Source: an uncultured Bacteroidia bacterium (GTDB lineage: Bacteria; Bacteroidota; Bacteroidia; Bacteroidales; UBA932). Taken from it: 36,383 nt of DNA. Shown here piece by piece: positions 12,195 to 36,383 of the stretch (the first letter of the stretch is position 1; every line of letters begins with the position of its first letter). The notes below the pieces were generated by a model. The model saw nothing but the letters and a program-made list of their open reading frames with translations, ran no database searches and was not told where the DNA came from. Position numbers and translations under genes: made by a program. Where the stretch lies: contig CADAXR010000015.1 in assembly GCA_902791945.1 (NCBI GenBank), forward strand, positions 1 through 36,383, written 5' to 3'.

Positions 12195-12205
12195 AAACCG
12201 GTTTA
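12194..12205. promoter_or_regulatory. operator 1, 12-bp perfect palindrome
   Basis: TAAACCGGTTTA is a perfect 12-base inverted repeat that touches the regulator's ATG and covers its predicted start of transcription. It repeats as operator 2 with centres 40 bp apart (about four helical turns), so bound dimers would sit on nearly the same DNA face. I infer these are sites for the adjacent GntR-type regulator. Confidence 0.8.
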
Positions 12206-12237
12206 CAAAGGTAGAAAAAAAATCATACCAGTGCAAA
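12206..12237 (-). promoter_or_regulatory. promoter of the regulator-GH3 operon
   Basis: On the minus strand TTTG (12237-12234), 20 bases, TACCTTTG (12213-12206) is a textbook Bacteroidetes promoter. Its -33 box overlaps operator 2 and its start site falls in operator 1. The leader before ATG 12194 would be only about 5-7 bases. Confidence 0.8.
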
Positions 12238-12244
12238 CCGGTTT
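12235..12244. promoter_or_regulatory. operator 2, 10-bp perfect palindrome
   Basis: AAACCGGTTT repeats the core of operator 1. It overlaps the -33 box of the leftward promoter and lies 10 bases upstream of the candidate rightward -7 box, so one bound regulator could affect both directions. Confidence 0.8.
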
Positions 12245-12254
12245 TAAAAAATAT

Positions 12255-12262
12255 TATTTTTG
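12255..12262 (+). promoter_or_regulatory. candidate -7 element of the rightward PUL promoter
   Basis: TATTTTTG matches TAnnTTTG, 33 bases upstream of ATG 12296. No good TTTG is present at -33 (the position is filled by operator 2 and its flank), so the promoter may be weak or dependent on other factors. Confidence 0.5.
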
Positions 12263-12295
12263 CATCAGATAGCACTAAAACAATCGCGTGATCAA

Positions 12296-15088
12296 ATGTC
12301 TGTAAACCATATATACAGTGTTCTGATTGGGCTGGGCTTCCTTTTCTTTACGACGGAGGCCCCGGCCCAGAACAAGCCTGATCAGAATCCGGATATCCTG
12401 GCCCGGATCGAGGCTTCCGGCGACTATGCCCCGATGTTCCCGTTCCTGCCGGAGCATTGTGCTCCTCAAAATTTGACGAACGTTGCAACCTGGCAGGGCA
12501 ACGAGTCCCACATTGCCGGCGACACCGGCTTTATTCGTGCGGAAGGTGAGTATTTCAAGGATGAGCAGGGCAACGTCCGACGTTTCCTCGGCACCAACAT
12601 CTGCTTCACAGGTTGTTTCCCCAAGCATAAGGATGCCGAGAGGGTGGCTGACGAGCTCGCCAGATACGGCTTCAACCTTGTCCGTCTTCACTACGTCCAT
12701 CACGCCTTCCCGCCCGAGAAGATCTACCCTGTGAAGAACTCCTTCATAGAGCCTGAGCAGCTGGAACGTTTCGACTATCTGCTCTACTGCCTCAAGCAGA
12801 AAGGCATTTACACTTACTTCCAACTCAATATCTCCAGAAAATTCGGCGAGCAGAATGGCTTTGAGAACGCCGACAAGCTTCCTCATTTCAACCACGGCAT
12901 AGACAATTATGACCAGTGGATGATAATGCTCCAGCAGCAGTACATAAAAGAAATCCTTAATCACAAGAATCCCTACACGGAGCTTCGTTACAAGGACGAA
13001 CCTGCCATTGCCATGCTTGAGCTGGCCAACGAGAACTCCATCATCTATTCCTGGTTCACTCCCCGCTACCGTTTCCCCAATCTCATCGAGCCCTACGCCA
13101 GTGACCTAAGGGAACGTTGGAATCAATTCCTAACGAAGAAATACGGCGACACCGAGTCGTTGGAGAAGTCGTGGCTCCAGGGACTCGAAGGTGACGGTTC
13201 TGAATATATCTCCGACGGCATCATCTCGTCAGAAGTGTCGAAAGACTGGCATCTGCAGGCAGACAACGGGTCGCAGGCGAGTTGGAGCATCGAGCCCAAG
13301 ACATCCAAAGACAAAATCAAGGGAGACCATTTCATCCGTCTTGATATTAAAAAGATCGGCGCCACCCCCAATATGCCCCAATTCGGCAGGTCAGGGCTGA
13401 AATTCAAAAGCATGAGCCCCCTATGCCTTAGGTTTAAGATGCGTTCCGACAGGCCTTGTGAAGTGACCGTGCGCATGAGTCAGCATCACGCTCCGTGGGG
13501 GACGGCAGGCCTGAACGCAAAATTCTCCTGCGGCAAGAAGTGGAGCGAGTATGAGTTCAATTTCTGCTCGAGCTTGGACGACGACGGTCTCAGGATTCTT
13601 TTCTCGAACTTTTCGTCCGGAGCCGTAGTCGATCTGGCTGACGTCTCGCTGGTGTCCGGGATGAACTACAAATGGGACGATAAGGAGAATCTCGAAGACG
13701 GGACGGTCCGCTGGCCTGCCCGCAACGACTGGTCTCTGCTTCCGCGCCGCGCTCACGATTTCACCGAATTCCTCGTTGGCCTGGAAGAGAACTACTTTGG
13801 TACGATGTACCGCTACACCAAAACGACCGTCAAGGCAAAGCAGCCGGTCACAGGCACTCAGCTCCGCTGGGGCTTGGACTATCCCCAGGCTATGACTGAT
13901 TTCGCCGACTATCACAGCTATTTCAATCATCCGGTGTGGCCGCAGGGCCATGGCAATTTCTCCCTGTGGAATGCGGGAGCGCAGTCTCTTGTCAACGCCA
14001 CTCCTCTTCCCGGCAGCACTCTTTCCGCTCTTGCCAGAAGCAGGATTTTGGGCCGTCCGTTCACAATCAGCGAGTACGACCACACGAATGTCAGCCTCTA
14101 CAGCGGCGAAGGCTACCTGATGGGATGCGCCTTCGGAGCCTTCCAGGATTGGGACGCACTTATCCAGTTCGCCTGGAGTGAAAACGACAATTTCTTCCGC
14201 TCTGACATGAATCCCCGCCACGAGAACTGTGCGTCTCCCCAGAAGCTGGTGCATTTCCCTGCCTGCTGGGCGATGTTCGTCCGTGGAGATGTCACTACCG
14301 GGACTAAGGACACCCTCTACACCAGAGTTTCGTCGAAAGAAAAGAGCATTGACTGCCTTACCGTCACCCAGAATCCCGCTCATCTGATTTCCGAGAATTC
14401 GGATCTCCTCAAGGTTCTGCCGTTTATGAAAGTGACAGGAGTTGAGATTGCCGAAAAGCCGGAGCTTTTCAAAGACGCCGGTCATAAGCTTATCCGCACG
14501 GAAGACGAGATCCCCGAGTCCGTAAAAGAGGTGTTGAAGAGCAAGGAAGTCAAAAGTTCCACCGGAGAGATCACCTGGAACTGGAAAGACGGCAACGCCG
14601 GATTCTTCAAGGTGGATACTCCCCGTACGAAAGTCTTTACGGGATTTGTCAAGGGGCGCAGTTTCGAATATGACGGCCTGACCCTGACCCCGGGCAAGAC
14701 GCGTCTTGACTGGCTGACATTGTCCCTGACGCTGACCAATCCCTCTGGCGAGGCGCCGGAAGGAAGAATTTCCGAGGGCAGCTGGCTTCTCGCAGCGACA
14801 GGCCTCTGCCACAACACCGACGAGAAGATCATCGATATAGGAAACGGCAAATACGTCTCCTGCGCGGCGCCAAACGGCGGTTCCTACGGCAAGGCCCCGG
14901 TGCTGTGCGAGGGGATCGACGCCGCCCTCCGCCTCGAAGGCCTCGGCGGCAAAGTCGAGTGTTACGCCCTTGACCCCCGCGGGGACAGGATGAAGGAAGT
15001 TCCGGTGACCTCGGAGGGCGGAGACGCCCTGGTCCACATACTTCCGGACTATAAAACCATATGGTACGAACTCAAAGTCAATCCATAA
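12296..15088 (+). CDS. clan GH-A glycoside hydrolase with inserted beta-sandwich module
   Basis: ATG 12296 gives 930 residues with a type I signal peptide (cleavage near TEAPAQ); the upstream in-frame TTG would start inside the -7 box. The catalytic barrel begins ~80 (GEYFKDEQGNVRRFLGTNI, then YGFNLVRLHYVHH). LELANENS supplies the likely acid/base E246 and RPFTISEYDH the likely nucleophile E593, as in GH5-like clan GH-A enzymes. Between them, residues ~310-450 form a separate beta-sandwich (LHLQADNGSQ-like strand order, ending AVVDLADVSLVSG) that looks like a carbohydrate-binding domain of the CBM4/9/11 type. A C-terminal ~200-residue beta domain follows the barrel. Substrate is not readable; an endo- or exo-beta-glycanase is likely. 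It is the first gene of the rightward PUL. Confidence 0.85.
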   Translation: MSVNHIYSVLIGLGFLFFTTEAPAQNKPDQNPDILARIEASGDYAPMFPFLPEHCAPQNLTNVATWQGNESHIAGDTGFIRAEGEYFKDEQGNVRRFLGTNICFTGCFPKHKDAERVADELARYGFNLVRLHYVHHAFPPEKIYPVKNSFIEPEQLERFDYLLYCLKQKGIYTYFQLNISRKFGEQNGFENADKLPHFNHGIDNYDQWMIMLQQQYIKEILNHKNPYTELRYKDEPAIAMLELANENSIIYSWFTPRYRFPNLIEPYASDLRERWNQFLTKKYGDTESLEKSWLQGLEGDGSEYISDGIISSEVSKDWHLQADNGSQASWSIEPKTSKDKIKGDHFIRLDIKKIGATPNMPQFGRSGLKFKSMSPLCLRFKMRSDRPCEVTVRMSQHHAPWGTAGLNAKFSCGKKWSEYEFNFCSSLDDDGLRILFSNFSSGAVVDLADVSLVSGMNYKWDDKENLEDGTVRWPARNDWSLLPRRAHDFTEFLVGLEENYFGTMYRYTKTTVKAKQPVTGTQLRWGLDYPQAMTDFADYHSYFNHPVWPQGHGNFSLWNAGAQSLVNATPLPGSTLSALARSRILGRPFTISEYDHTNVSLYSGEGYLMGCAFGAFQDWDALIQFAWSENDNFFRSDMNPRHENCASPQKLVHFPACWAMFVRGDVTTGTKDTLYTRVSSKEKSIDCLTVTQNPAHLISENSDLLKVLPFMKVTGVEIAEKPELFKDAGHKLIRTEDEIPESVKEVLKSKEVKSSTGEITWNWKDGNAGFFKVDTPRTKVFTGFVKGRSFEYDGLTLTPGKTRLDWLTLSLTLTNPSGEAPEGRISEGSWLLAATGLCHNTDEKIIDIGNGKYVSCAAPNGGSYGKAPVLCEGIDAALRLEGLGGKVECYALDPRGDRMKEVPVTSEGGDALVHILPDYKTIWYELKVNP

Positions 15089-15089
15089 T

Positions 15090-16652: not shown

Positions 16653-16664
16653 ACTGTACCGACT

Positions 16665-19136: not shown

Positions 19137-19148
19137 AGAGAATAAGCC

Positions 19149-22100
19149 ATGAAGAAAATTTTACTGATCGCAATGATGCTGATCCCGGTTGTGGCCTTCT
19201 CTCAAAGCCACAAGAGTATCAGCGGCACCGTCAAGGATGCCAAGGGGGAGCCGGTCGTCGGAGCCGTCCTCTCCATCGAAGGCAACACCTCGGGCGCCCT
19301 CACCGACATTTCGGGCAACTATATTCTCAACTACACTCCCGCATCCGGCAAAAAGACCATATTGGTTGTCAGCTGCCTCGGCTATGCCGAGCAGAAGATA
19401 GAGCTCGTTTCCCAGACCAGACTCGACATAGTTCTCGAAGAAGAGTCCGAGCTGCTCGAGGATGCGGTGGTCGTCGGTTACGGCTCCATGCGACGCAGCG
19501 ACCTCACCGGCTCCGTGACCTCCATCAAGATAGATGACACGGAAGCAGGCCAGAGCTCCAATCTGAGCCAGCTGCTCCAGGGCCGCGCCGCCGGCGTGCA
19601 AGTCACCAACAACAGCGCCTCTCCCGATGCCGGAGTTTCCATCCTCATCCGCGGCGCCAGCTCGTTCAACAGTTCCTCCGAGCCTCTTTACGTGGTCGAC
19701 GGAATCATCATCAACACCAGCGGCAGCAGCTCGCTGATGAGCTCGCATCTTGGCGACGACAACGCCGGCACCGACGAGGCGACCAACGGCCTCATAGGTA
19801 TCAACCCCATGGATATCGCCTCAATCGAAGTCCTGAAGGATGCATCGGCGACTGCGATTTATGGCTCACAGGGAGCCAACGGCGTTATCCTCATCACCAC
19901 CAAGTCCGCAAGCCGCGAACGTCCTGTCATCAACGCTTCCGTCGGTATCGACATAAGCACTCCATACAAGAAGCAGCCGATGATGAACTTCCAGGAGTAC
20001 GAAGGCTATCTCAGGTCTCTTGTGGAGAGTCCGATCGTCCAGGAATACAATCCTTCCCTTATCAACACGGCCAAATCCAGGCTCAATTCCATCCGCGGCG
20101 ACTCATTCTTCGACCGTTATGAAATAGTTGACTGGCAGGACTACCTCACACGTACGGCCGTCAACCAGCGATATTACGTATCTATCGCCGGCAAGCCCAA
20201 GCAGACAAGTTTCCTGTTTTCACTCGGTCTCAACAACACCCAGGGTATCATCAAGACCACCGGCTTCCTTAATTTCACCTCCAGGCTCAACCTCGAACGC
20301 ACTTTCGGCAAGAAGTTCACCATGGGCATGAAGGTCGGTTTCTCGTATCTTGATTCAAAACTCACCCAGGGAGCTGCGACCGGCAAGCTCAACGCCGCCT
20401 CCTCGCTTATGCGAAGCATGTTGACGTGCCCTCCGTTCATGCAGCTCAGGGAGACCGACGAGGAAGGCGACGTGATAGATCTCGGTGACGACGTCAACCA
20501 GCAATATGGTCCCAACCGGTGGATGCAGGGCTTTGTCAACAACCGTATCGAGTACCGTGTCAATCCGAGCCTCTTCGCCCAGTATAAGATAATCCCCTGG
20601 CTGACGCTGAAGACCACTTTCGGCGGCGACTTCCGTGTTACCGAGCAGAGTAAGTTCAAGTCAAAGCTCCTTACATCTTCGCCGACCGGCTCTTCTGCCG
20701 CCATCGCCCACACCGACCGCCTCTCCTGGAACTGGGACACCACCTTGTCCTGGTACAAAAAACTGAAGAAGAAACACCTCCTGCAGGGCACGATCGGTAT
20801 GTCTATGTCCGGTGCGAAGACCACTGTCCAGACCACTGAGGGCTCCAATATCGACGAATGGAAACCGAAGGACCTCGCCATCAACAGCGCAGCTTACGGC
20901 TACTTCACTTACACTGAGTCGTCCTATTCGCTGATGTCCTTCTTCCTCAGAAGCATCTACGCCTACGACAGCCGTTATATCCTGACGGCCACCGTGCGAG
21001 GTGACGGCTCCAGCCGCTTTGCCAAGAAGAACAAATGGGGCTGCTTCCCGTCCTTCGCTTTCGCCTGGAGGCTCAGCCAGGAGCCGTGGTTCAAGGTTCC
21101 TGTGATTTCCATGGCGAAGTTCAGGGTCGGCTGGGGCCAGGTGGGCAACCAGGCCATATCTTCCTACGCCACGATCTACAACTACACCACCGTCTATCAG
21201 CCCGACCACGGCAACCTCGACTCCCAGCTTGCGCTTGGTACCACCACGAATAACCTTCCCAACGCAAATCTTAAGTGGGAGACCACCGAGCAGACCAACC
21301 TCGGTCTTGACTACGGCATGTTCGACGGCCGCTTCACATTATCCTTCGATGCCTACTATAAAAAGACCAAGGACCTTCTCCAGACCAAGACCCTCGCTCC
21401 TTCGGCCGGTCTGTTGAATCCCTACGTCAATATGGGCGCCATTGAGAATAAGGGTATAGAGCTTACCCTCGACACCGTTCCTCTCAAGTTGGGCGACTTC
21501 GAGTGGTCGATCGGGGGCAATATCTCCTTCAACCGCAACAAGATTCTGTCCATCAATCCTGAAGAAATCGAGAAGGACTGGATATACCTCACCCCTGACG
21601 ACCGTCAGTTCGTCTCCTATTTCAACGGCGACGACATCGGCTCAGGTTCCATCCTGAAGTCCTTCTTGAACATATTCATCGAGGGCAAGCCTATGGCAAT
21701 CTTCTACGGCATGAAGACCGACGGGCTCGTGCAGGAAGGCGAGATGGGACTTCCCTTCTCCGCAACCGACACCGAATACCACGGCCCTGGCTCGATCAAA
21801 TACGTCGACGTGGACAAGGACGGCTATATAACCGAGCACGACCGCACTATCATCGGCGATCCCAACCCGAAATTCACCTACGGTTTCAACACCACGTTCC
21901 GCTGGAAGAACCTTTCCCTTACGGCCAACTTCATCGGTTCGCACGGCAATGATATCTACAACGTCAACCTCATGCTCGACACCAACACTTCCGGTGCCAT
22001 GCAGAATCTCCGCAGGGATGTCGTAGCCAAACAGTGGACCCCTGAGAACACCGACACCTGGTATCCTGCCATCGGCGCCCTGAGCGGGACTGATGTAAAA

Positions 22101-22367
22101 TGGGCCAGCGACCGATATGTGGAGGACGGCTCTTACCTGAGGCTTTCCAATCTTTCCCTATCCTATGACCTTCGCTTCAAGAAGAAGGATTTCTTCATCA
22201 AGAACATCAACTTTACCGCATCGGCCGGCAACGTCTGGGTATGGACAAAGTACTCCGGATGGGATCCGGACGTCAACAGCTACGGTTCGATAAAGAAGAA
22301 GGGTTCGGATATGGGTTCGTATCCCGGAGCGCGCAGCTTCAAGTTTGACATAAAATTCACATTCTGA
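19149..22367 (+). CDS. susC-like: SusC/RagA-family TonB-linked outer membrane receptor
   Basis: 1072 residues with all the expected parts: signal peptide (~1-19), carboxypeptidase-like regulatory domain (ISGTVKDAKGEPVVGAVL, ~25-105), a TonB-box region (DAVVVGYGSM, ~112), plug (LLQGRAAGVQVTNNS, ILIRGASSFNSSSEP, ASIEVLKDASATAIYGSQG) and a long barrel ending FDIKFTF. SusC proteins pair with SusD in the outer membrane and import oligosaccharides using TonB energy. The gap to the next gene is 14 bases, and that gene is SusD, the normal order. It sits directly behind a second, shorter SusC-like gene. Confidence 0.97.
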   Translation: MKKILLIAMMLIPVVAFSQSHKSISGTVKDAKGEPVVGAVLSIEGNTSGALTDISGNYILNYTPASGKKTILVVSCLGYAEQKIELVSQTRLDIVLEEESELLEDAVVVGYGSMRRSDLTGSVTSIKIDDTEAGQSSNLSQLLQGRAAGVQVTNNSASPDAGVSILIRGASSFNSSSEPLYVVDGIIINTSGSSSLMSSHLGDDNAGTDEATNGLIGINPMDIASIEVLKDASATAIYGSQGANGVILITTKSASRERPVINASVGIDISTPYKKQPMMNFQEYEGYLRSLVESPIVQEYNPSLINTAKSRLNSIRGDSFFDRYEIVDWQDYLTRTAVNQRYYVSIAGKPKQTSFLFSLGLNNTQGIIKTTGFLNFTSRLNLERTFGKKFTMGMKVGFSYLDSKLTQGAATGKLNAASSLMRSMLTCPPFMQLRETDEEGDVIDLGDDVNQQYGPNRWMQGFVNNRIEYRVNPSLFAQYKIIPWLTLKTTFGGDFRVTEQSKFKSKLLTSSPTGSSAAIAHTDRLSWNWDTTLSWYKKLKKKHLLQGTIGMSMSGAKTTVQTTEGSNIDEWKPKDLAINSAAYGYFTYTESSYSLMSFFLRSIYAYDSRYILTATVRGDGSSRFAKKNKWGCFPSFAFAWRLSQEPWFKVPVISMAKFRVGWGQVGNQAISSYATIYNYTTVYQPDHGNLDSQLALGTTTNNLPNANLKWETTEQTNLGLDYGMFDGRFTLSFDAYYKKTKDLLQTKTLAPSAGLLNPYVNMGAIENKGIELTLDTVPLKLGDFEWSIGGNISFNRNKILSINPEEIEKDWIYLTPDDRQFVSYFNGDDIGSGSILKSFLNIFIEGKPMAIFYGMKTDGLVQEGEMGLPFSATDTEYHGPGSIKYVDVDKDGYITEHDRTIIGDPNPKFTYGFNTTFRWKNLSLTANFIGSHGNDIYNVNLMLDTNTSGAMQNLRRDVVAKQWTPENTDTWYPAIGALSGTDVKWASDRYVEDGSYLRLSNLSLSYDLRFKKKDFFIKNINFTASAGNVWVWTKYSGWDPDVNSYGSIKKKGSDMGSYPGARSFKFDIKFTF

Positions 22368-22381
22368 TAGGAGGACCGGCT

Positions 22382-24238
22382 ATGAAAAAGATATATATGC
22401 TCATAACGGCAATGCTGATTGCAGGATGCTCCTTCCTGGATGAAAACATGAACACCCAGTATTCCGAGGAGGACATCTTCGGAAGCGAGGCGGCGCTTGA
22501 GGCTTTTGTCACGGGCTGCTACCAGAGTTTCTGCATAAGCGGCTACTACAACGGCAACATGATGGAATGGTTCGCCCCCGCGTCGGCCATAGTCCACTGG
22601 GGTATAACCGGATCATCCCTGTCTGATCCTCAGAAACGCTATACCAGTCTTCTGCATCTTACCCAGTACGCAAGGCATCCTTACAACGTCCAGATGTTCA
22701 AGGCTTTGTATACTACAATCTACAAATGCAACAAGCTGATAGCCGCTCTTCCGGACAGTCCGGTGGATGAGGGTTTCAAGAAGCAGATCGAAGCGGAGGC
22801 CAGGTTCCTCAGGGCCGAATGTTATTTCCATATTGTCCGTCGCTGGGGCAACGCTCCGGTTCATCTGGATGTTCCCACGACGATAGACCAGACTAACGGC
22901 AGGCGTGAAGAATTCTGGAAGATCTACGCCATCGTCCTTGAAGACCTTGATTTTGCCGAGCAGAACGGCCGTGACTACGACACCCAGAGGAAGATAGCCG
23001 GGACCGGGACCGGAAGAGTATGCCGCAACGCGGCCACCGCGGTCAAGTCGCTGGTCTATCTTACGATCGGGACCCTTCTGGAGCACTCCGACCAGAACGA
23101 CAATTTCTGGATTTGCCCCAATTCGGAAGTCTTCGAAGGCTTCGGCGAGATTGGCATCACTTCGGCGAAAGTCGCTTTCGAGAAGGCGCTTGCCTGTGCC
23201 AAGGAGGTTATGCCCGAGACCAGTACGGTCGGGTCCCCTTATAGACTTGCCGACAGTTATGCCCAGCTGTTCAAATGGACAGATCCTGAAGATTTCCAGC
23301 TCAGGGAAAGGATATTCGTGGTCCCCAGCACCAGCGAGAGGGGAGTTTCCCAGCTTGCCACGTGGACACTTCCGAGCTGCTACAACAACTCGGCCGACAA
23401 CGACAGTTATTACGGCCGCTTCCGTCCTTCCCGTTTCGTGTTCCAGAAGTGGTGCGAAGCCTACGGAGGAGTCAAGGGCAGCGGGAATGCGGGCAATATA
23501 TATATAAAGTGCGGAGATCCCAGGATGGATGCGTCCCTGATATACTATTCCTATCCGGGTCAACCTGGAGTCACGAAGTATTGTTATCCTTATGCCAGCG
23601 CCGTTATCAATGGCAACCGCTGGGAGTGCGCGCCGTATTTCAAGAAATACTACGACCCCAAGTATGACGCCACTGCCGGATATGCGGATTTGTATGTGAT
23701 GAGGCTTGCGGAGGTCTATCTGATAGCGGCCGAAGCCTGTGCCAACCTGTGCAACTCCCCTTACGACACTTATGGACAAGAGGGCATCGGCTATGTCAAC
23801 ATCCTGCTCGAAAGGGCGCGCCGTTCCACTGAAGACGGCATCCCCTCCGCGGAGCCGGCAGATTGGGACGCCGCCACGATTGGCACCAAGGCCAATCTCA
23901 TCGACAAGATTTTCTGGGAAAGGGCCTTCGAGATGCTTGGCGAGCAGCACGAATACTTCGACACCCACAGGATGGGCGCGAAGTGGTTTGCCGAGCACGT
24001 GACCATCCCCCACAACGCCTTTCTTTGCCTTCCCCAGCAGGACGACACCCAAAGCGGCAATCCCGGCTACCGTACCAATTATTTCGGACAGCCCCAGTTC
24101 GGCGAAGGCAACTACTACCCTGCCACGCAGGCAGAAGTCCGTAAAGGACTCATCTGCGCGTTCCCTAACAATGAACTTGTCTATAACAGCGCCCTGACCC
24201 TGGACGACCAGAACCCTTCCGAGGTCTTCTGGGAATAA
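22382..24238 (+). CDS. susD-like: SusD/RagB-family starch-binding-like lipoprotein
   Basis: 618 residues with a short lipoprotein signal (MKKIYMLITAMLIAGC, Cys 16) followed by SFLDENMNTQYSEEDIFGS, the conserved opening of mature SusD. Helical segments typical of the TPR-like core are visible (YTTIYKCNKLIAAL, EAEARFLRAECYFHIVRRWG), and the C-terminal RagB/SusD region carries MRLAEVYLIAAEACANL and a late IFWERAFEMLGEQHEYFD. A GGAGG at 22370-22374, 7 bases before the ATG, is an unusually good Shine-Dalgarno for this phylum. It is the lid partner of the preceding SusC; only one SusD is present for the two SusC genes. Confidence 0.95.
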   Translation: MKKIYMLITAMLIAGCSFLDENMNTQYSEEDIFGSEAALEAFVTGCYQSFCISGYYNGNMMEWFAPASAIVHWGITGSSLSDPQKRYTSLLHLTQYARHPYNVQMFKALYTTIYKCNKLIAALPDSPVDEGFKKQIEAEARFLRAECYFHIVRRWGNAPVHLDVPTTIDQTNGRREEFWKIYAIVLEDLDFAEQNGRDYDTQRKIAGTGTGRVCRNAATAVKSLVYLTIGTLLEHSDQNDNFWICPNSEVFEGFGEIGITSAKVAFEKALACAKEVMPETSTVGSPYRLADSYAQLFKWTDPEDFQLRERIFVVPSTSERGVSQLATWTLPSCYNNSADNDSYYGRFRPSRFVFQKWCEAYGGVKGSGNAGNIYIKCGDPRMDASLIYYSYPGQPGVTKYCYPYASAVINGNRWECAPYFKKYYDPKYDATAGYADLYVMRLAEVYLIAAEACANLCNSPYDTYGQEGIGYVNILLERARRSTEDGIPSAEPADWDAATIGTKANLIDKIFWERAFEMLGEQHEYFDTHRMGAKWFAEHVTIPHNAFLCLPQQDDTQSGNPGYRTNYFGQPQFGEGNYYPATQAEVRKGLICAFPNNELVYNSALTLDDQNPSEVFWE

Positions 24239-29237: not shown

Positions 29238-30368
29238 ATGAAAAAACTTCTCATAATCCTCGCTGCCGTCACTTTGTTTGCAGGGTGCCGGCAGGGAGGA
29301 TTGAACGTGCTTGAAACGGAGGGATTGACGGTGGAACCTTATGGTCAGGCGGAAGTGTCCTTGGAGGGAAACACCGTAGAGATCACGGGGCTCAGGGAAT
29401 ACGGTGTCTGCGGAGTGTCTTTAAAGGGCCGGTGGGATGTCTCGGAGTATAGCGCCCTGCGCTTTACAATAGACAATCACGACCCCCGCGAGCACCTTTC
29501 CCTGATACTGTGGCTTCTAAACGAAAATGAGGAGAAACTGCCCTGGAGGGCAAGTTCCCTCAGAGGCGCCATCCAGGAACGCCGTCATGTCCTGCCCGGA
29601 GAAAAGGTAACACTTACGATACCTCTTCCTCCCGAAGTCGTGCATCCGGAAATAGACTCGCTTTTCACGACTATGCTCAACACTCCCTATTCCAACGGTC
29701 ACTTCACCTACAACGCGGATCTTTCAGATATCCGCGAGCTCAGGCTTGCGACGCGCTGGGACAGGAAAGACGTGCGTTGGAGCGTCTCGGACGTGGAGTT
29801 TGTCAAAGGCAAGAGAGAGAAGGCGCCGGAGTATATGTCGCTTTCGGAGGAAGAGTTCTTCCCTTTCATCGACAAGTTCGGTCAATTCAAGTACCGCGAC
29901 TGGCCGGGGAAGATCCACTCCGAGGAGGAACTGTTGAAAGCGCGTGAAGATGAGGAGAAAGACCTAGCCGCTCATCCCGGTCCCGATGACTGGGATGAGT
30001 ACGGCGGTTGGGCTGCTGGCCCGAAGCTGGAAGCTACAGGCCGCTTCCGTACTGAAAAAATTGATGGCAAATGGTGGCTTGTGGATCCGGAGGGCCATCT
30101 TTTCTGGTCGCATGGGGTCCTCAGGATTTCTCCCGGGAACGCCGTCACGCCGCTTTACGCCCCGGATCTTGCCGACCGGAGGAGGATGATCCAGAGTTCG
30201 GGAAGTTCTATACCACCTTCGACCCGCTGCTCGGCAGCTACTATGCTGCAAGGCACATCGATGGTCACTACGACTTCTCCTCGGCGAACTGCTACCGCAA
30301 ATATGGTCCTGACTATATGGCCGTCTACGGCGACCTGTGCCACAGGCGCCTTCGCAGCTGGGCAATGA
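29238..30368 (+). pseudogene. agarase-like glycoside hydrolase, N-terminal fragment (frameshifted)
   Basis: Lipoprotein signal (MKKLLIILAAVTLFAGC, Cys 17), a ~170-residue beta-sandwich (AEVSLEGNTVEITGLREYG onward), then the start of a GH-A-type catalytic region with IDGKWWLVDPEGHLFWSHGV at residues ~275-294. The sequence is coherent to about 30179 (ending LYAPDLADR). After that the frame turns into low-complexity, Ser/Thr/Arg-rich non-homologous sequence and stops at 30368, while the rest of the enzyme continues in the next forward frame. The two halves together form one ~680-residue gene. This is either a genuine inactivating frameshift or an assembly error, and I cannot decide which from one read of the sequence. 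Confidence 0.8.
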
Positions 30369-31270
30369 ATACGATGGCAAACGCCACCGAGCCAAGCATC
30401 TGCGCTATGGACCGCACCCCCTGGTGCGACCGCATTGAGATCGTTTCAAAACCGATGAATCCCGACGCAAAGGTTATCTGGTGGAGCCTTCCCGACCCGT
30501 TCGATCCGTCTTTCCGCGCGGAGATAGTGCGTCAGCTTGAGGAGAGGGGAGACGCTCTGCAGGATCCCTGGTGCCTGGGCTTCTTCGTGGATAACGAACA
30601 CGCCTGGGGAAGCCCCACCCACGTCACGGAATGTGCGCTCGCCGCTCCGGAGGATGCTGCCGTCAAGGCGGCCCTCAGGAAGTGGCTGAAAGAACGTTAC
30701 GGCAAGGCCGTGGCGTTTGACGCGATGACGGAGGAAGACAAACTTGCCTTCAACGATGTGGTCATAGAAAAATACTACAGCACCATCCGTGAGGAATTCA
30801 ACCGCATTGCTCCCGGACTGTTGTACCTTGGCTGCCGCTTTGGCGGGCAGCCGGGCAATCCCCATGTGATAGAGATCGGGGCGAAATACTGCGATCTGCT
30901 CAGCTTCAACATCTACAAGTACAATCTTGACTGCTTCGCTCTTCCCGAGGGGATAGACAAGCCCGTGCTCATTGGCGAATTCCATTTCGGAGCCTTTGAC
31001 CGCGGTCCTTTCCATCCCGGACAGGTGTGGACGGAAAGCCAGGAAGACAGGGCGGCCTGTTACAAGGATTTCGTCCGTTCCGCAGTCGAGCATCCGAATT
31101 TTGTCGGCGTCCATTGGCACCAGTTCTCGGACCAGGCCACTACGGGGCGCTTCGACGGTGAAGACTTCCAGGTCGGATTTACCGATGTGTGCGACACGCC
31201 TTACAAAGAGACTGTCGAAGCTGCCCGCGAGATAGGAAGTAGGATCTACAGGATGAGATATGGCAAGTAA
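30071..31270 (+). pseudogene. agarase-like glycoside hydrolase, C-terminal fragment carrying both catalytic Glu
   Basis: This frame is open to TAA 31268-31270. Its first ~36 residues are out-of-frame noise, and real homology begins about base 30179 with EEDDPEFGKFY. It carries SWAMNTMANATEP, FFVDNEHAWG (acid/base Glu codon 30596-30598) and LIGEFHFGAFDRG (nucleophile Glu codon 30977-30979), which resemble GH50-type beta-agarases and related unclassified clan GH-A enzymes. It has no good start of its own and no signal peptide, so by itself it would be cytoplasmic and incomplete. The reading frame change is from pos mod 3 = 0 to pos mod 3 = 2. The last bases overlap the second small peptide gene. 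Confidence 0.8.
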
Positions 31271-31409
31271 AAATGCCTACATAAGCCCTTCGGTCACCTC
31301 ACGCACTGTCAGTATGGAGCAGTATGTCTGCGTCAGCGACAGTGTACAAGCCGGTTCGATAGCCGATATCACAGAAATTGAACGAACAGGAGACTGGAAT
31401 GATGATTAG
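31260..31409 (+). CDS. small ORF, 49-residue peptide related to the one at 27270
   Basis: ATG 31260 lies inside the last codons of the hydrolase and TAG 31407 lies inside the start of the GH5 gene, so this short gene fills the whole 128-base gap. It reads Y7-x-x-P10, V17-S18-x-E20-x-Y22, S26-D27, exactly five positions offset from the peptide at 27270, with 8 identities in 21 ungapped residues, and it closes in D45-W46 plus acidic residues. An AGGATGAG stretch precedes the ATG by two bases, so ribosome binding is not clear. It also precedes a fimbrillin-domain lipoprotein. No signal peptide is seen. The conserved block and overlap make chance unlikely, though translation is unproven. Confidence 0.6.
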   Translation: MASKNAYISPSVTSRTVSMEQYVCVSDSVQAGSIADITEIERTGDWNDD

Positions 31410-33405
31410 ACACAGCAAACTGCTTTTCGGCGTCCTTATCTGCTTTGCAGCAGTTGGATGCCTCAAGGAAAAAGACCCCTATGCGGGTAAGAGCAAGCCT
31501 GTCAGCTTCGTTGTCGGGGAGCTTTCCTGCGACGGTGACGAAGTCGGTAAGGTCACCGACCACCCGTCCGGAGCCACCCACAGCCTCTACTGGGACAAGG
31601 GCGACCAGATCTCCATGATTGCTTTCAAGGAGCCTGCGGCCGCCGGAGAACTTTCGTCCGACAACGTAGTCAATTTCTCGTCCAACCGTTTCACTTCCGA
31701 TGCGGCAGGCAGGATAGCGACTTTCACGGGGAACATTCCCGACCTTGCGGGGACACTCGGAAGCGGCACATGTAAGCTATACGCAATCTATCCTGCCGCC
31801 AGTGTAAACGTGGCCGCCAGGTCCACAAACGACTACGGCGCAGTCAATTATAATCTGACCGGGCTCTCGATAGCCGACTTCCAGGACGGCACGGGATGGA
31901 AATACTGCTGGTTCGTCTCCAATGACGGTACGATCGACATTGCAACCAGGGCCGTAAAGAACTCGCCTTCTTTCATGATGGCCAACACCTTGCTGAAGTT
32001 CAAATATATTTCGACAAAGAGGATACGCAAGATCGAAATCACGGTCAGCATGAACACCAGCGGAGGAGGCCTCGCCGGCGATTTCGTGCTTTACACCAAA
32101 TACAAGGCGGTCCAGACAGGATGTCCTAAAACAACCATTACGATTTCTAACGGGTCATATCTGCCGACAGAGATTCTCTTCGCCTGCCGGGAGGTGCGCA
32201 AGGACCGCACGTTGACCTTCGTCTTCACCGCAGAAGACGGCACGACTTTCACGAAAAGCCTGACCGCTTCGGCGGCATACAACACCACCAAGATGTATGA
32301 TCTCGGGACCATCAGCCTTGGAAACTGGGTCTCTACAGAAAGTGCTGCGGAGGCTGCCTACAATATGGGCGTCGGCCTTAACCTTTGCGGGACCTTTGAC
32401 GACGTAGAAACCCCCGAGGGAAGGAATCCGCCGGACCGTAACGATATTTCCACGTTCGAGACATTGCATGCTCAGGGAATCACCACCCAGACGACTATGA
32501 ACGCAACTGCCGCAGCCGGATTCAAGAGCATGAGAATCCCGATTACCTGGTATCCGCACATGGACGACCCCTCGTCGACCATCGATGATGCCATGCTTGA
32601 CAGGATTGAAGAAATTGTCAATTATTGCTTCAACGCCGGACTTTACTGCATTATCAATATGCACCACGACGGCGGTCCCGTGGCAGGTAAGGCCTGGCTC
32701 AGGGCCAACTGGGCGAACTATGAGGACATCAGCGCCAAATACAAGAATGTCTGGAGGCAGATAGCAGAACGCTTCAAGGATTACGGGCCTCATCTTCTTT
32801 TCGAGAGTTTCAATGAAATCAGGGATGCCTACAGCACCTGGTTTCAGCCGAGGAACGATATCGACTATCAGGCTGTCAACGCTTTGAACCAGGACTTCGT
32901 GGATGTGGTGCGCGCAACCGGGGGGACCAATACTACACGTAACCTTATCGTGTCCACCTACACCGCTTCCACGCGCGAGAAAACCCTGCAGAACTTCGTT
33001 ATGCCCAGCGATGCTATTCCCGGACACCTGATGGTACAGATCCACTCCTATCTTCCGGTCGGTTTCGTGACCGCCAGCGTCGACAGGGAGGATTCCCGCA
33101 GCGAATTCTACGACGAGACGGATATCCCGGAGATAGAAGCGATGTTTGAGACCGTCAGGGCCAATATCCTCGCGAAGGGATGGCCTTGCGTAATGGGTGA
33201 ATACGGCGCCTTCCGCAAGAACAACAATGATGTCCAGAGGGGCCACCATGCCGCGGTCTACACTGAAAGGGCTCTCCGGCTCGGAATAGTTCCGCTCTAC
33301 TGGTACAATCCCATGTCGTGGAGCAACCGCACGTCCGGTACCTGGACCTATCCTCCTGTCAAGGATTCCCTTATCGCCGCATATAACAGGGTTAGGGAGC
33401 AATGA
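31399..33405 (+). CDS. GH5-family endo-beta-glucanase lipoprotein with fimbrillin-like N-terminal domain
   Basis: ATG 31399 is preceded by AGGAG (31388-31392) and yields 668 residues with a lipoprotein signal (Cys 21, FAAVGC). Residues ~30-305 are fimbrillin-like: SLYWDKGDQISMIAF, TFTGNIPDL, YAIYPAAS, FMMANTLLKFKY and a GGGLAGDF turn. Residues ~310-668 are a GH5 barrel: MGVGLNLCGTFDD, MRIPITWYPHMDD, IINMHHDGG, LLFESFNEIRD with acid/base E473, and VMGEYGAF with nucleophile E601. The LNLCGTFD motif is like subfamily 4 enzymes active on xyloglucan or beta-glucan. It would be anchored at the cell surface and cut polymer before SusCD import. The last codon overlaps the activase start (ATGA). Confidence 0.92.
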   Translation: MMIRHSKLLFGVLICFAAVGCLKEKDPYAGKSKPVSFVVGELSCDGDEVGKVTDHPSGATHSLYWDKGDQISMIAFKEPAAAGELSSDNVVNFSSNRFTSDAAGRIATFTGNIPDLAGTLGSGTCKLYAIYPAASVNVAARSTNDYGAVNYNLTGLSIADFQDGTGWKYCWFVSNDGTIDIATRAVKNSPSFMMANTLLKFKYISTKRIRKIEITVSMNTSGGGLAGDFVLYTKYKAVQTGCPKTTITISNGSYLPTEILFACREVRKDRTLTFVFTAEDGTTFTKSLTASAAYNTTKMYDLGTISLGNWVSTESAAEAAYNMGVGLNLCGTFDDVETPEGRNPPDRNDISTFETLHAQGITTQTTMNATAAAGFKSMRIPITWYPHMDDPSSTIDDAMLDRIEEIVNYCFNAGLYCIINMHHDGGPVAGKAWLRANWANYEDISAKYKNVWRQIAERFKDYGPHLLFESFNEIRDAYSTWFQPRNDIDYQAVNALNQDFVDVVRATGGTNTTRNLIVSTYTASTREKTLQNFVMPSDAIPGHLMVQIHSYLPVGFVTASVDREDSRSEFYDETDIPEIEAMFETVRANILAKGWPCVMGEYGAFRKNNNDVQRGHHAAVYTERALRLGIVPLYWYNPMSWSNRTSGTWTYPPVKDSLIAAYNRVREQ

Positions 33406-34151
33406 CCGGTCTGCTTTTCAGCATAGAGGAATTTGCCATCAACGACGGCCCGGGAATACGTACGACAGTGTTCCTCAAGGGCTGCCCGCTCCGCTGCGTC
33501 TGGTGTCATAATCCTGAAGGCTGGAAGGCCGCTCCGGAGACTATGGAAAAACGGGGTCGGAAAGAGATCTGTGGCTATACGATCGAAGCTGAGGAGTTGG
33601 CGAGGCGTCTGCGCCGCGACGCCGATATTTTCCGCGACAGCGGTGGAGGAGTGACATTCACGGGAGGGGAGCCTTTGCAGCAGTGGCAGTTCCTCTGCGA
33701 GGTGATGGACCTTCTTCCCGGCATCGACAAAGCTGTCGAGACCAGCGGATATTCTTCCGAAGAAGCCTTTGGAAAGGTCCTTTCAAGGGTGGATATGGTT
33801 CTGTTCGATATAAAGATTGCCGATCCCTATCTCCATAAACACTACACGGGAGTGGATAATGAACCTATACTTAGGAATTTCAACTTGCTTAAGTCTTCTC
33901 CCAAGAGTTTTGTCGTCCGCATTCCGCTGATCCCCGGAGTCAACGACAGTCTTGACAATATGCTCGCCACTCTTGACATTATCAAGGGCGCGCCGGGTCT
34001 TAAGCGGGTGGAACTGCTTCGCTATAACACCCTCGCAGGTGCCAAATACCCGATGCTGGGGCTCTCCTACAATCCGCCCTTCGACGGAACCAGGGCCCCG
34101 GAAATACACGATGTTTTCACTTCCAAGGGAATAAAAACAGTTGTTCTGTAA
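33402..34151 (+). CDS. glycyl radical enzyme activating enzyme (PflA-like radical SAM)
   Basis: 249 residues. It shows the radical SAM cluster motif C28-x3-C32-x2-C35 in FLKGCPLRCVWCHNPEG, the activase opening FAINDGPGIRTTVFLKG, the SAM-binding GGEP motif (TFTGGEPL, ~86-93) and VETSGY (~110-115). It binds a [4Fe-4S] cluster and SAM and generates the glycyl radical on the downstream enzyme. The ~45 residues between the cluster and GGEP contain only one Cys (C57), so the ferredoxin-like insert with two extra clusters found in most non-PFL activases is missing. The start overlaps the GH5 stop as ATGA, and the stop overlaps the GRE start as TAATG. Confidence 0.95.
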   Translation: MTGLLFSIEEFAINDGPGIRTTVFLKGCPLRCVWCHNPEGWKAAPETMEKRGRKEICGYTIEAEELARRLRRDADIFRDSGGGVTFTGGEPLQQWQFLCEVMDLLPGIDKAVETSGYSSEEAFGKVLSRVDMVLFDIKIADPYLHKHYTGVDNEPILRNFNLLKSSPKSFVVRIPLIPGVNDSLDNMLATLDIIKGAPGLKRVELLRYNTLAGAKYPMLGLSYNPPFDGTRAPEIHDVFTSKGIKTVVL

Positions 34152-36220
34152 TGAATAAGGATATTGAAATCTTACGCTCGTTCATCCGCGGCGGGAATCA
34201 TCACAGGTTCCGTCACGACCCTGAGGAGTTCGGGCTCGACACTCTTTCAGGGCGGTTCCAGGCGGAGAAAATCCCTCCGGTGGAGCGCAGCGCAAAAATG
34301 CTCAAGGCTCTCCTGAATGCCGAAATGCCCATAATACTCGAGGGAGAGAAGATAGTCGCCACAAGGACGATAACCCGAATCCCTTCCATATTCACGGAAG
34401 ATGAGTGGGCGGATATACGGGCTCATCATACTCTTCACGAGCGCGGAACCGTTTCCAATATCTCTCCCGACTATGAGGGTATACTGCGTGACGGGCTCGG
34501 GAGGCGCAAGGCCGAAGTCGTGACGAGGATGGAAGACCTCACCCTCGATGAGGGGCAGCGGCAGTTCCTTTCGGCGGCGAAGGAGAGTATTGAGGCAGTG
34601 CAGGACTTTATCCTGAAATACAGGGATTGCGCCCGCAATGCCGGGCTGGATGATATAGCCGACACACTTTCAGCAATTCACACTTCCGGGGCCGGTACCC
34701 TGCGTGAAGCGCTTCAACTGTTGCGAATAGTCCATTTCGCCCTTTGGGAGAGCGACTGCTACCACAACACCCTGGGGCGCTTCGACCAGTACATTTATCC
34801 TTATTATAAAGCCGATATGGCTTCCGGTCGCATCACCCGCGAAGAAGCTTTCGACCTCATCGAGGAATTCTTCCTCATGTGCAACAAGGACAGCGACCTG
34901 TATGTCGGCATGCAGCAGGGCGACAATGGCCAGAGCATAGTGCTGGCCGGGCGTGACGCCGAAGGGAAATATCTCTTCAACGAAGTCTCCGAGATGTGCC
35001 TCAGGGCCAGCTATGAGCTCAACCTCATCGATCCCAAGATCAATCTGCGCTGCGACGGCAAGACACCGCTCGAGGTCTATAAGATGGGGGCTCAGCTCAC
35101 TAAGCGCGGCCTCGGTTTCCCGCAGTACGACAACGACGACGTCGTGATACCGGGATTATTGAAGCTCGGCTATTCGCCCGAGGATGCCTACAACTACGTA
35201 GTGGCTGCCTGCTGGGAATTCATAGTCCCCAAGAACGGCATGGAGATCGTCAATATTGACGCCCTATCCTTCGCAGGAGTGGTAAGCGCGGCGCTCGAGC
35301 ATCTCGGCGAATACGACAGCTACGATAAGTTCTATGCATATATAGATGGTCTGATCAAAGCGGAATGCGACAGGATCACCTCTGCCCACGACAATCTGTA
35401 TATAGTTCCCGCACCGTTCATGTCGATGCTTATGGGGGGAACCATCGATCGCGCGCAGGATATTTCCCTGGGCGGGAATTCCAACAATTTTGGAGTGCAC
35501 GGTACCGGACTTTCCACTGCCGCGGATTCACTTGCGGTCATTAAAAAGTTCTATTTTGAAGAAAAATCCGTAACTTTAAAGGAATTGATGGATTCCGTCC
35601 ATAATAATTTCAAGGGCCACGAGGCATTGCAGGAGCGTCTTCGCAACGACTCTCCGAAGATGGGTCTGGACTCCGACGAGGCCGACTCCATCGGCACCGC
35701 CCTGCTGGATTCGTTCGCGGCTGCGCTTCACGGGAAGCGCAACGAACGCGGCGGTATCTGGAGGGCCGGCACCGGTACGGCGATGTATTATATCTTCCAC
35801 GCCAAGGACCTGCCTGCAACCCCGGACGGCCGCTGCGCCGGCGAGGTTATTCCCGCCAACTTCACTCCGAGCATGTTCTTGAGGCAGCAGGGGCCTGTCT
35901 CCGTGATGCGCTCCTTCTCCAAGCAGCACCTTGAGGACACGATCAACGGCGGCCCTCTTACGATTGAGCTTGATGAGAGCATATTCCGTAGCGAAGAGAC
36001 TGTCGAAAAACTCGCCATGCTCATCCGCTCCTATATGCGTCTCGGCGGCCACCAGCTTCAGCTCAACACCCTAAACCGCGAGACTCTTCTCGATGCCAAG
36101 GTCCATCCGGAGCAGCATCGGGACTTGATAGTCCGCGTGTGGGGCTGGAGCGGTTACTTCGTGGAACTTGACGAGTGTTACCAGGACCATATTATCGAAA
36201 GAATAAAATATAAGGTATGA
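34151..36220 (+). CDS. glycyl radical enzyme of the pyruvate formate-lyase/dehydratase superfamily, substrate unknown
   Basis: 689 residues, shorter than typical GREs (750-850). The thiyl-radical site is in VVAACWEF, with C354 and a Glu two residues later (E356), as in the C-x-E of diol and choline-type dehydratases/lyases, not the CC of true PFL. The glycyl loop RVWGWSGYF near the C-terminus places the radical on G665, with Trp on both sides of the Gly where most families have Ser/Ala and Tyr. Immediate upstream partners are its activase and a PUL; downstream, with overlapping ATGA, is a sugar porter. I infer it works on a sugar, sugar acid or polyol derivative, but the reaction cannot be read from sequence. 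It is not likely a housekeeping PFL. Confidence 0.9.
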   Translation: MNKDIEILRSFIRGGNHHRFRHDPEEFGLDTLSGRFQAEKIPPVERSAKMLKALLNAEMPIILEGEKIVATRTITRIPSIFTEDEWADIRAHHTLHERGTVSNISPDYEGILRDGLGRRKAEVVTRMEDLTLDEGQRQFLSAAKESIEAVQDFILKYRDCARNAGLDDIADTLSAIHTSGAGTLREALQLLRIVHFALWESDCYHNTLGRFDQYIYPYYKADMASGRITREEAFDLIEEFFLMCNKDSDLYVGMQQGDNGQSIVLAGRDAEGKYLFNEVSEMCLRASYELNLIDPKINLRCDGKTPLEVYKMGAQLTKRGLGFPQYDNDDVVIPGLLKLGYSPEDAYNYVVAACWEFIVPKNGMEIVNIDALSFAGVVSAALEHLGEYDSYDKFYAYIDGLIKAECDRITSAHDNLYIVPAPFMSMLMGGTIDRAQDISLGGNSNNFGVHGTGLSTAADSLAVIKKFYFEEKSVTLKELMDSVHNNFKGHEALQERLRNDSPKMGLDSDEADSIGTALLDSFAAALHGKRNERGGIWRAGTGTAMYYIFHAKDLPATPDGRCAGEVIPANFTPSMFLRQQGPVSVMRSFSKQHLEDTINGGPLTIELDESIFRSEETVEKLAMLIRSYMRLGGHQLQLNTLNRETLLDAKVHPEQHRDLIVRVWGWSGYFVELDECYQDHIIERIKYKV

Positions 36221-36383
36221 AAATCAAGGGTTTTATGCTGTGGGTCGCCTTCGTCGCTTCGCTCGGAGGACTCCTTTTCGGTTTTGACACTGCCGTTATC
36301 TCCGGTGCGGAGAAGCAGATACAGGCCGTCTATGGGCTCGGTGACTTCGCCCATGGTTTCACCATGGCAACTGCGCTGATAGG
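36217..36383 (+). CDS. MFS sugar porter, N-terminal part (3' truncated by window)
   Basis: The 55 visible codons start ATG 36217, overlapping the GRE stop (TGA 36218-36220). A first transmembrane helix (FMLWVAFVASLGGLLFGFD) is followed by TAVISGAEKQI, the sugar-porter signature seen in XylE-type proton symporters (GGLLFGYDTAVISG-like). It would import a monosaccharide, probably a product of this locus, through the inner membrane. The remainder is beyond the window. Confidence 0.88.
   Translation, partial: MKIKGFMLWVAFVASLGGLLFGFDTAVISGAEKQIQAVYGLGDFAHGFTMATALI

Follow-up and report, generated by a model that had tools for sequence, protein, structure and literature searches.

What does a glycyl radical enzyme (GRE) do at the end of a glycan utilization locus? 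The question is raised by a contig of an uncultured Bacteroidia bacterium (Bacteroidales; GenBank assembly GCA_902791945.1, contig CADAXR010000015.1), in which a GRE gene, preceded by its activase gene and followed by the gene of a sugar porter, is joined to a polysaccharide utilization locus (PUL). The window analysed here is this whole contig of 36,383 bases. We report that its GRE belongs to a subfamily that is nearly certainly new as a sequence group, and that the substrate of this family is probably a monosaccharide. For the reaction we infer both substrate and product: the enzyme may dehydrate a monosaccharide that carries no phosphate and is either imported or set free locally; a pentose is most likely, L-arabinose being the best candidate. 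We consider this proposal plausible, if somewhat short of an even chance. No paper describing this GRE family was found among the open-access papers searched.

A distinct subfamily of glycyl radical enzymes

The window GRE contains both domains of the superfamily (PF02901, 307 bits; PF01228, 76 bits). It matches 12 NCBIfam models, and so, for the same 12, does every one of the 41 sequences in alignment A1; the window protein, the one for which scores per model are given, falls far under the cut-off of every one. Its best model is TIGR01774 (320 bits, cut-off 678), HypD gives 270 bits (cut-off 1100) and CutC 231 (1050), and the models for choline trimethylamine-lyase, HypD, sulfopropanediol dehydratase, and indoleacetate and hydroxyphenylacetate decarboxylases span 157–270 bits against cut-offs of 1000–1150. 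The pyruvate formate-lyase (PFL) model TIGR01255 yields 72.7 bits against 994, and the protein has C-W-E where PFL has Cys-Cys. The initial annotation had called the enzyme dehydratase-type rather than PFL. This view holds: the protein stays below the curated cut-offs for PFL, choline lyase, hydroxyproline dehydratase, and sulfopropanediol dehydratase, and the nearest structures are glycerol and diol dehydratases at about 25% identity.

A profile built from the 41 members scores glycerol dehydratase (1r8w) highest, at 367 bits, followed by PflD (343) and diol dehydratase (335). With an AlphaFold model of the window GRE (pLDDT 89.8, pTM 0.91), Foldseek likewise gives the best E-value to 1r8w (TM 0.85), and the TM to 8id0, i.e., PflD with 1,5-anhydromannitol-6-phosphate, is 0.88. 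With glycerol dehydratase and the 1,2-propanediol dehydratases (5i2g, 9rco) the enzyme shares the GRE fold, C-x-E, and, in most members, an equivalent of His281; it differs from them in length (689 against 787 aa), in the active-site residues described below, and in a genomic context of sugars rather than diols.

PflD and YbiW, lyases of 1,5-anhydrohexitol-6-phosphates, are also sugar-directed GREs with C-x-E and a similar fold (TM 0.88 and 0.85), and a passage of PMC12441222 cites their ring-opening chemistry as established (Ma et al., 2024). If the GRE likewise acted as a C-O lyase on sugars, it would open the ring of an anhydro-sugar to give a 1-deoxyketose. The second-best profile match and the 1,5-anhydrohexitol-6-phosphates held in 8id0 and 8id7 speak for such a function, which we nevertheless consider quite unlikely. 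The window GRE reaches 263 bits with the PflD model PRK09983 (cut-off 1109), its active-site residues differ, and an aldose epimerase, as found beside some members, would be senseless for an anhydro-sugar. The genes adjoining in E. coli (phosphotransferase system (PTS), FSA aldolase, GldA) were not recognised by eye in the neighbourhoods read, apart from one PTS gene, and a porter or an ATP-binding cassette (ABC) transporter is found here instead. That gene, an EIIC/EIIB gene five genes from the GRE (L131:907–2508, minus strand; PF02378, 274 bits), is the only PTS gene noticed, and the substrate of this deep-branching member might be phosphorylated.

Active-site residues were counted over the 95 members with a GRE call longer than 600 aa. 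The C-x-E and W-G-W motifs read by the initial annotation are present as C-W-E at 354–356 and V-W-G-W-S at 663–667. C354, W355, and E356 are identical in 95/95 members, and W664, G665, and W666 in 94/95, with gaps in the remaining one. Identical in all 95 are also N103, N368, D249, Q255, G257, D258, K296, N298, R300, R538, T604, and E606. The counterparts of N103 and N368 in 1r8w are His164 and Asp447, which contact the leaving hydroxyl in glycerol dehydratase. The His of this pair is present in 1r8w and 5i2a and the Asp in 1r8w; at the same columns PflD has His and Asp, and YbiW His and Gly. H205, aligned with His281 of glycerol dehydratase, is kept in 90/95. New relative to the glycerol and diol dehydratases is a conserved stretch, NKDSDLY-GMQQGDNGQ, of which QQGDNGQ aligns immediately before Tyr339 of 1r8w, which we take to lie close to the substrate; the model is least reliable in this stretch, where residues 255–259 have pLDDT <50. 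A pocket with many Asn, Gln, and Asp residues would fit a sugar, and since the active-site changes are invariant, we predict new chemistry.

The replacement of both leaving-group residues by Asn argues against a dehydratase of small 1,2-diols (ethylene glycol, 1,2-propanediol) that would end a normal isomerase–kinase–aldolase sugar pathway. Such an activity would suit L132, with an iron-dependent alcohol dehydrogenase and a fucose-isomerase-type protein as neighbours, and L026, with an isomerase, a kinase, and a class II aldolase. It would also agree with the GREs that a passage of PMC10266427 reports in fucose/rhamnose microcompartment loci of Lachnospiraceae. Microcompartment genes were not recognised by eye at our loci, no search for them having been made, and the association with porter, epimerase, and glycosidase would be left unexplained; we regard this option as very unlikely.

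The family was studied in 104 loci (L002–L049, 48 loci; L117–L171 minus L120, 54 loci; L112; and the window) from Bacteroidota, Verrucomicrobiota, Clostridia, and one metagenome-assembled genome (MAG) labelled Chloroflexi. Duplicates were removed (L115, L116, and L120, of L011, L012, and L028), L058, L074, and L095 repeat L034, L023, and L033, short search loci were superseded by longer stretches, and loci on contigs <4 kb (L057, L078) were excluded. A contig scan with one genome per species gave 48 loci from Bacteroidales, Verrucomicrobiota, and Clostridia-type MAGs and isolates, many of rumen or gut origin; the GREs closest to that of the window are from Bacteroidales MAGs. Whole-genome searches, at E limits of 1e-150 and 1e-130, found the GRE in 7/299 genomes of the window's family (window counted), 15/397 of the family of L034, 21/337 of the phylum of L023, and 19/295 of the order of L033. 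Carriers are 2–6% of the genomes sampled around known carriers, the carrier itself counted. In the window genome (2.57 Mb) the GRE is the sole match at E ≤ 0.001; of 11 genomes searched, only G300 has additional GRE matches at the limit applied there, its family member scoring 1216 bits and four other GREs 230–277. A search of plasmid records returned 137 matches, all below 60% identity, the five matches listed being at about 30%.

The GRE of L044 clusters with clostridial GREs although the title of the record says Chloroflexi, and therefore the bin may be wrong. The same locus contains, at 17564–19534, short frames with repeated GSPPLARGK/ITPACAGK peptides that look like reading frames running through repeats, perhaps a CRISPR array. 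In L170 the family member has, at a distance of about 3.5 kb, a further GRE-like gene accompanied by its own activase (13209–16284), and L157 carries at 15304–17289 (oriented with the GRE on the plus strand) an opposed 661-aa frame that clusters with GREs.

Gene neighbourhoods across the family

Genes were called by a custom script, so that some may be missed or shortened, and near genes are those within three genes of the GRE. L049 has no eligible GRE call, and neighbour counts are thus over 103 loci. An activase profile matches near the GRE in 89/104 loci; the other 15 include contig ends (L004, L043, L046, L049) and a gene-call failure (L010). In 12 loci (the window, 10 other Bacteroidota, and L023) the activase directly precedes the GRE on the same strand. 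Nine of these junctions are 4-bp overlaps, the window has a 1-bp overlap, and in two loci the genes are 3 and 13 bp apart. An opposed GntR gene separates activase and GRE in at least seven Bacteroidaceae-type loci (L017–L022, L024). Most GRE activases other than that of PFL keep a cysteine-rich Fe-S insert. Between the WCHNPE and GGE motifs, 37 of 88 readable activases have 0–1 Cys and the other 51 have 3–11, the insert being lost in Bacteroidota and in L023, L025, L132, L134, L140, L142, and L147–L150.

The neighbourhoods support the sugar-pathway setting proposed in the initial annotation. A sugar porter of the major facilitator superfamily (MFS) is near the GRE in 29/104 loci, of which 26 belong to Bacteroidota or Verrucomicrobiota and the remaining three to the phylum of L023. 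The porter tested is above the sugar-porter family cut-off, and its best curated model is XylE (346 bits, cut-off 608). Sensor-type GntR regulators are near the GRE in 13 loci, all of them Bacteroidota loci other than the window, and aldose 1-epimerases in seven. The widespread unit in Bacteroidota is activase–GRE–porter, with aldose epimerase and GntR optional.

An L-arabinofuranosidase of family GH51 or GH127 is near the GRE in 21/104 loci. Ten of these were checked with Pfam: GH51 in L118, L155, L145, L009, L144, L158, and L020, and GH127 in L157, L167, and L019. All 16 GH51 matches lie within three genes of the GRE. When the 95 GREs were collapsed at 90% identity (84 clusters), arabinofuranosidases made up 16/457 near and 1/490 far genes (p=7e-5); at 70% (49 clusters) the counts were 8/275 and 1/309 (p=0.012). 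The loci concerned fall into separate clades of the tree, in three groups, and show distinct arrangements: GRE–porter–GH51 in Bacteroidota, GH51–GRE–activase in L143–L145, and GRE–activase–GH51 in L155 and L158–L160. By eye, the GH51s of L155, L158, and L160 have no obvious signal peptide at their start, so arabinose would be released in the cytoplasm beside the GRE.

Other proteins were seen around the GRE. DUF4867 proteins recur in clostridial loci (L029 and L125 by PF16161, L132 by eye), and rubrerythrin-like frames were noticed by eye in L143, L145, L134, and L169, possibly reflecting oxygen protection or chance.

A candidate route and its alternatives

Four Lachnospiraceae-type genomes, G649 (L124 and L175), G324 (L125 and L176), G299 (L034 and L172), and G488 (L123, L173, and L174), carry an apparently full set of genes: GH78, a sugar ABC transporter, a GH88/105-like protein, LacI, an aldo-keto reductase (AKR), a zinc-dependent alcohol dehydrogenase, an FGGY kinase, deoxyribose-phosphate aldolase (DeoC), SMP-30, activase, and GRE. 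The set occurs in three arrangements, alike in the close relatives G649 and G324. DeoC is above the equivalog cut-off of 117 in all four (239 bits in G299, 229 in G649, 230 in G324, 219 in G488). The kinase passes the xylulokinase cut-off of 380 in G299 (397), the other three being just under it (373–375). The AKRs of G649, G324, and G488 score 412, 411, and 400 bits against the cut-off of 448 for L-glyceraldehyde-3-phosphate (L-GAP) reductase.

DeoC needs a 2-deoxyaldose phosphate, which, to judge from these annotations, could arise through the action of a GRE dehydratase and then a reductase; from an L-pentose, L-GAP would result, and three of the four genomes have a reductase that suits it. 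Mechanistic detail beyond the assignment to C-x-E dehydratases is hypothetical. The sugar would enter through the porter or ABC transporter, be sensed by the GntR or LacI regulator, and be supplied as the right anomer by the aldose 1-epimerase where present. By homology, the co-encoded activase would generate the glycyl radical on Gly665. As in other C-x-E enzymes, the radical would pass to Cys354, which would abstract a hydrogen from a carbon bearing a hydroxyl, with Glu356 acting as the base on that hydroxyl. Loss of the adjacent hydroxyl could then give a keto-deoxy sugar, as in the first half of the action of ribonucleotide reductase (RNR) on ribose. In the Lachnospiraceae-type genomes, the recurring gene set suggests that an aldo-keto or zinc-dependent reductase may reduce this product, that the xylulokinase-like kinase may phosphorylate it, and that DeoC may cleave it to acetaldehyde and a triose phosphate.

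The proposed likeness to RNR concerns the chemistry: a thiyl would take the hydrogen next to the leaving hydroxyl, and class I RNR has C-x-E. Here a free sugar rather than a nucleotide would react, and separate enzymes would carry out the reduction. Deoxyribose utilization offers the same exit through a kinase and DeoC; in our gene set the kinase is FGGY/XylB-like, the GRE would come first, and glycosidases and a sugar ABC transporter are included. As a complete fermentation route, in which the GRE deoxygenates free L-arabinose, DeoC splits a 2-deoxypentose phosphate into acetaldehyde and L-GAP, and an L-GAP-reductase-like enzyme takes up the latter in some carriers, the scheme is in our view doubtful.

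Part of the same evidence would suit a pentitol dehydratase, for which the AKR would make an alditol and the GRE would turn its terminal 1,2-diol into a 2-deoxyaldose, to be phosphorylated and cleaved by DeoC. Glycerol dehydratase is the closest match in profile and fold, an AKR is near the GRE in six loci as well as in the four full sets, and the product would be directly a DeoC-type substrate. We consider this unlikely: no AKR-profile match lies within three genes in any Bacteroidota locus, aldose 1-epimerase being found in five, and Asn replaces both H164 and D447 of glycerol dehydratase.

The glycosidases bear on another alternative, namely that the substrate is a different sugar of pectin or arabinogalactan (L-rhamnose, or a methylated or branched sugar), possibly varying by clade, with the arabinofuranosidases as fellow travellers. 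GH78 stands beside the GRE in L030, L034, and L048 and belongs to the sets of G649, G324, and G488, which also include GH88/105-like genes, and GH106 is found in L025. Against it, a pentose would suit both the XylB-like kinase and DeoC, and rhamnose would, on general chemistry, lack a free primary hydroxyl for phosphorylation before isomerisation. We rate this alternative as rather unlikely.

The absence of L-arabinose isomerase (AraA) from several GRE genomes would be explained if the GRE were a radical aldose–ketose isomerase in its place. Absence of AraA is about equally common without the GRE. In G000, moreover, the sole PF00596 match scores 73 bits (265-aa frame) against 196–201 bits beside AraA in G298/G282, so that the downstream AraD seems missing too. 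This makes the isomerase most improbable. Replacement of AraA by the GRE was rejected as an explanation, given no association in 25 and 21 GRE genomes compared with two background samples; PF00596, applied only to G000 and G282/G298, proved too broad as a test for AraD.

Several observations weigh against the dehydration of L-arabinose. No L-arabinofuranosidase is near the GRE in 83/104 loci; elsewhere the neighbours include rhamnosidases (GH78 or GH106) or no glycosidase. The profiles used to recognise neighbours derive from those very genes, up to six away from the GRE, and the enrichment compares near with far genes within the GRE loci only. The AKRs of G299 (L034; 60 bits), L030 (68), and L040, L041, and L128 (44–70) are far from L-GAP reductase; the AKR is thus not one conserved enzyme, and the case for the L-configuration comes from three genomes, of which two are closely related. 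DeoC is missing from 5/25 GRE genomes, completeness being known for five of the 25, and those without it include G1253 and G1182 with GRE–activase–GH51. AraA is missing from 14/25 GRE genomes, as compared with 96/119 sampled genomes of the window's family, and is clearly present in 5/10 Bacteroidaceae/Prevotellaceae-type GRE genomes, as compared with 80/139 in the genus of one of them. The fucose-isomerase-type protein, kinase, and class II aldolase of L026 are ill-suited to a 2-deoxyaldose, and the proposed route offers no clear role for the SMP-30 protein. Finally, with both acids replaced by Asn, protonation of the leaving group by D258, in the low-confidence stretch, is only a guess.

Two candidate partners were rejected as general features of the family: L-GAP reductase as a constant partner, since only 3/8 AKRs tested (L123, L124, L125) come near the model, and DeoC as a universal exit, found in just 20/25 GRE genomes.

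The module at the end of a glycan locus

In the window, the candidate sugar-dehydrating module has been appended to a SusC/SusD glycan locus. The features are as follows.

11208..12275, minus strand: regulator with GntR DNA-binding domain and periplasmic-binding-like sensor, belonging to the family of GntRs linked to the GRE elsewhere
12260..15088, plus strand: large protein that heads the PUL and is without a Pfam match
19149..22367, plus strand: SusC-like TonB-dependent transporter (Pfam)
22382..24238, plus strand: SusD-like lipoprotein (Pfam)
29238..31270, plus strand: glycosidase-like gene (by eye), in two frames here, no Pfam match
31378..33405, plus strand: GH5 (PF00150, 167 bits) with N-terminal extension, 4-bp overlap with the activase
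33402..34151, plus strand: radical S-adenosylmethionine GRE activase, 249 aa, of the short type that lacks the cysteine-rich Fe-S insert
34151..36220, plus strand: GRE, 689 aa, with C354-W355-E356 as thiyl/base site and predicted radical Gly665 in V-W-G-W-S
36217..36383, plus strand: MFS sugar porter, 5' part (PF00083), XylE-like in the tested relative, truncated by the contig end

The overlaps ATGA, TAATG, and ATGA reported by the initial annotation were confirmed at its junctions: ATGA at 33402–33405 is common to the GH5 end and the activase start, TAATG at 34149–34153 to the activase end and the GRE start, and ATGA at 36217–36220 to the GRE end and the porter start. They suggest translational coupling of these four genes. 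The GH5 protein is 675 aa long from a TTG, with an alternative ATG start at 31399. The activase matches Radical_SAM and Fer4_12 and has the cluster motif CPLRCVWC (C-x3-C-x2-C). Because the window is the whole contig, the porter ends after 55 codons; this fragment scores 21.1 bits with PF00083, slightly below the cut-off of 22.3, and has a full-length homologue in L002:12067–13389. The glycosidase-like gene is a single frame of 682–686 aa in L003/L002, and its break near 30176–30194 in the window is a frameshift, either real or an assembly error. The tandem pair of TonB-dependent receptors at 16665–22367, the first a plug match only, is accompanied by the single SusD found. Elsewhere in the window, 1380–3347 (minus strand) encodes an aroD–aroA fusion (3-dehydroquinase and EPSP synthase) in one frame.

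SusC/SusD at 19149–24238 and the GH5 gene lie on the same strand, as expected of a PUL. The regulator is divergent from the PUL and scores 486 bits with a profile of GRE-linked GntRs; it is 42–62% identical over 192–329 residues to 13 of 14 of them and 81% identical to the other, a 64-residue fragment. As a member of their family, it further links the PUL and the GRE. The large protein at the PUL head is 52% identical over 888 residues to the product of the L002 gene two places downstream of the porter.

The tie between GRE and PUL that the initial annotation saw does not extend beyond the clade of the window. Of 30 Bacteroidota loci, surveyed in 6–22 kb stretches, some on short contigs, by single-sequence phmmer on the script's gene calls, both SusC- and SusD-like genes were found in four (the window, L002, L003, and L006), only one in L007 and L015, and neither in 24. 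In relatives the GRE is thus mostly PUL-independent, one of the outcomes that the initial annotation had named as refuting its reading, and the fusion is a trait of the window's clade. The broader idea of a radical enzyme in the sugar pathway of a glycan locus stands as regards the dehydratase type and the sugar context, and finds no support as regards a general PUL tie.

GREs catalyse some of the hardest reactions in the anaerobic gut. Besides the anhydrohexitol-phosphate lyases YbiW and PflD, we know of no GRE shown to act on sugars. The present family has invariant active-site changes and, in four genomes, an apparent whole pathway; together with its frequency, these make a substrate screen short and decisive. 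If true, the fermentation of L-arabinose outlined above would be the half-reaction of RNR put to use in catabolism, by-passing isomerase and epimerase chemistry, and the family may thus open a new route of anaerobic sugar breakdown.

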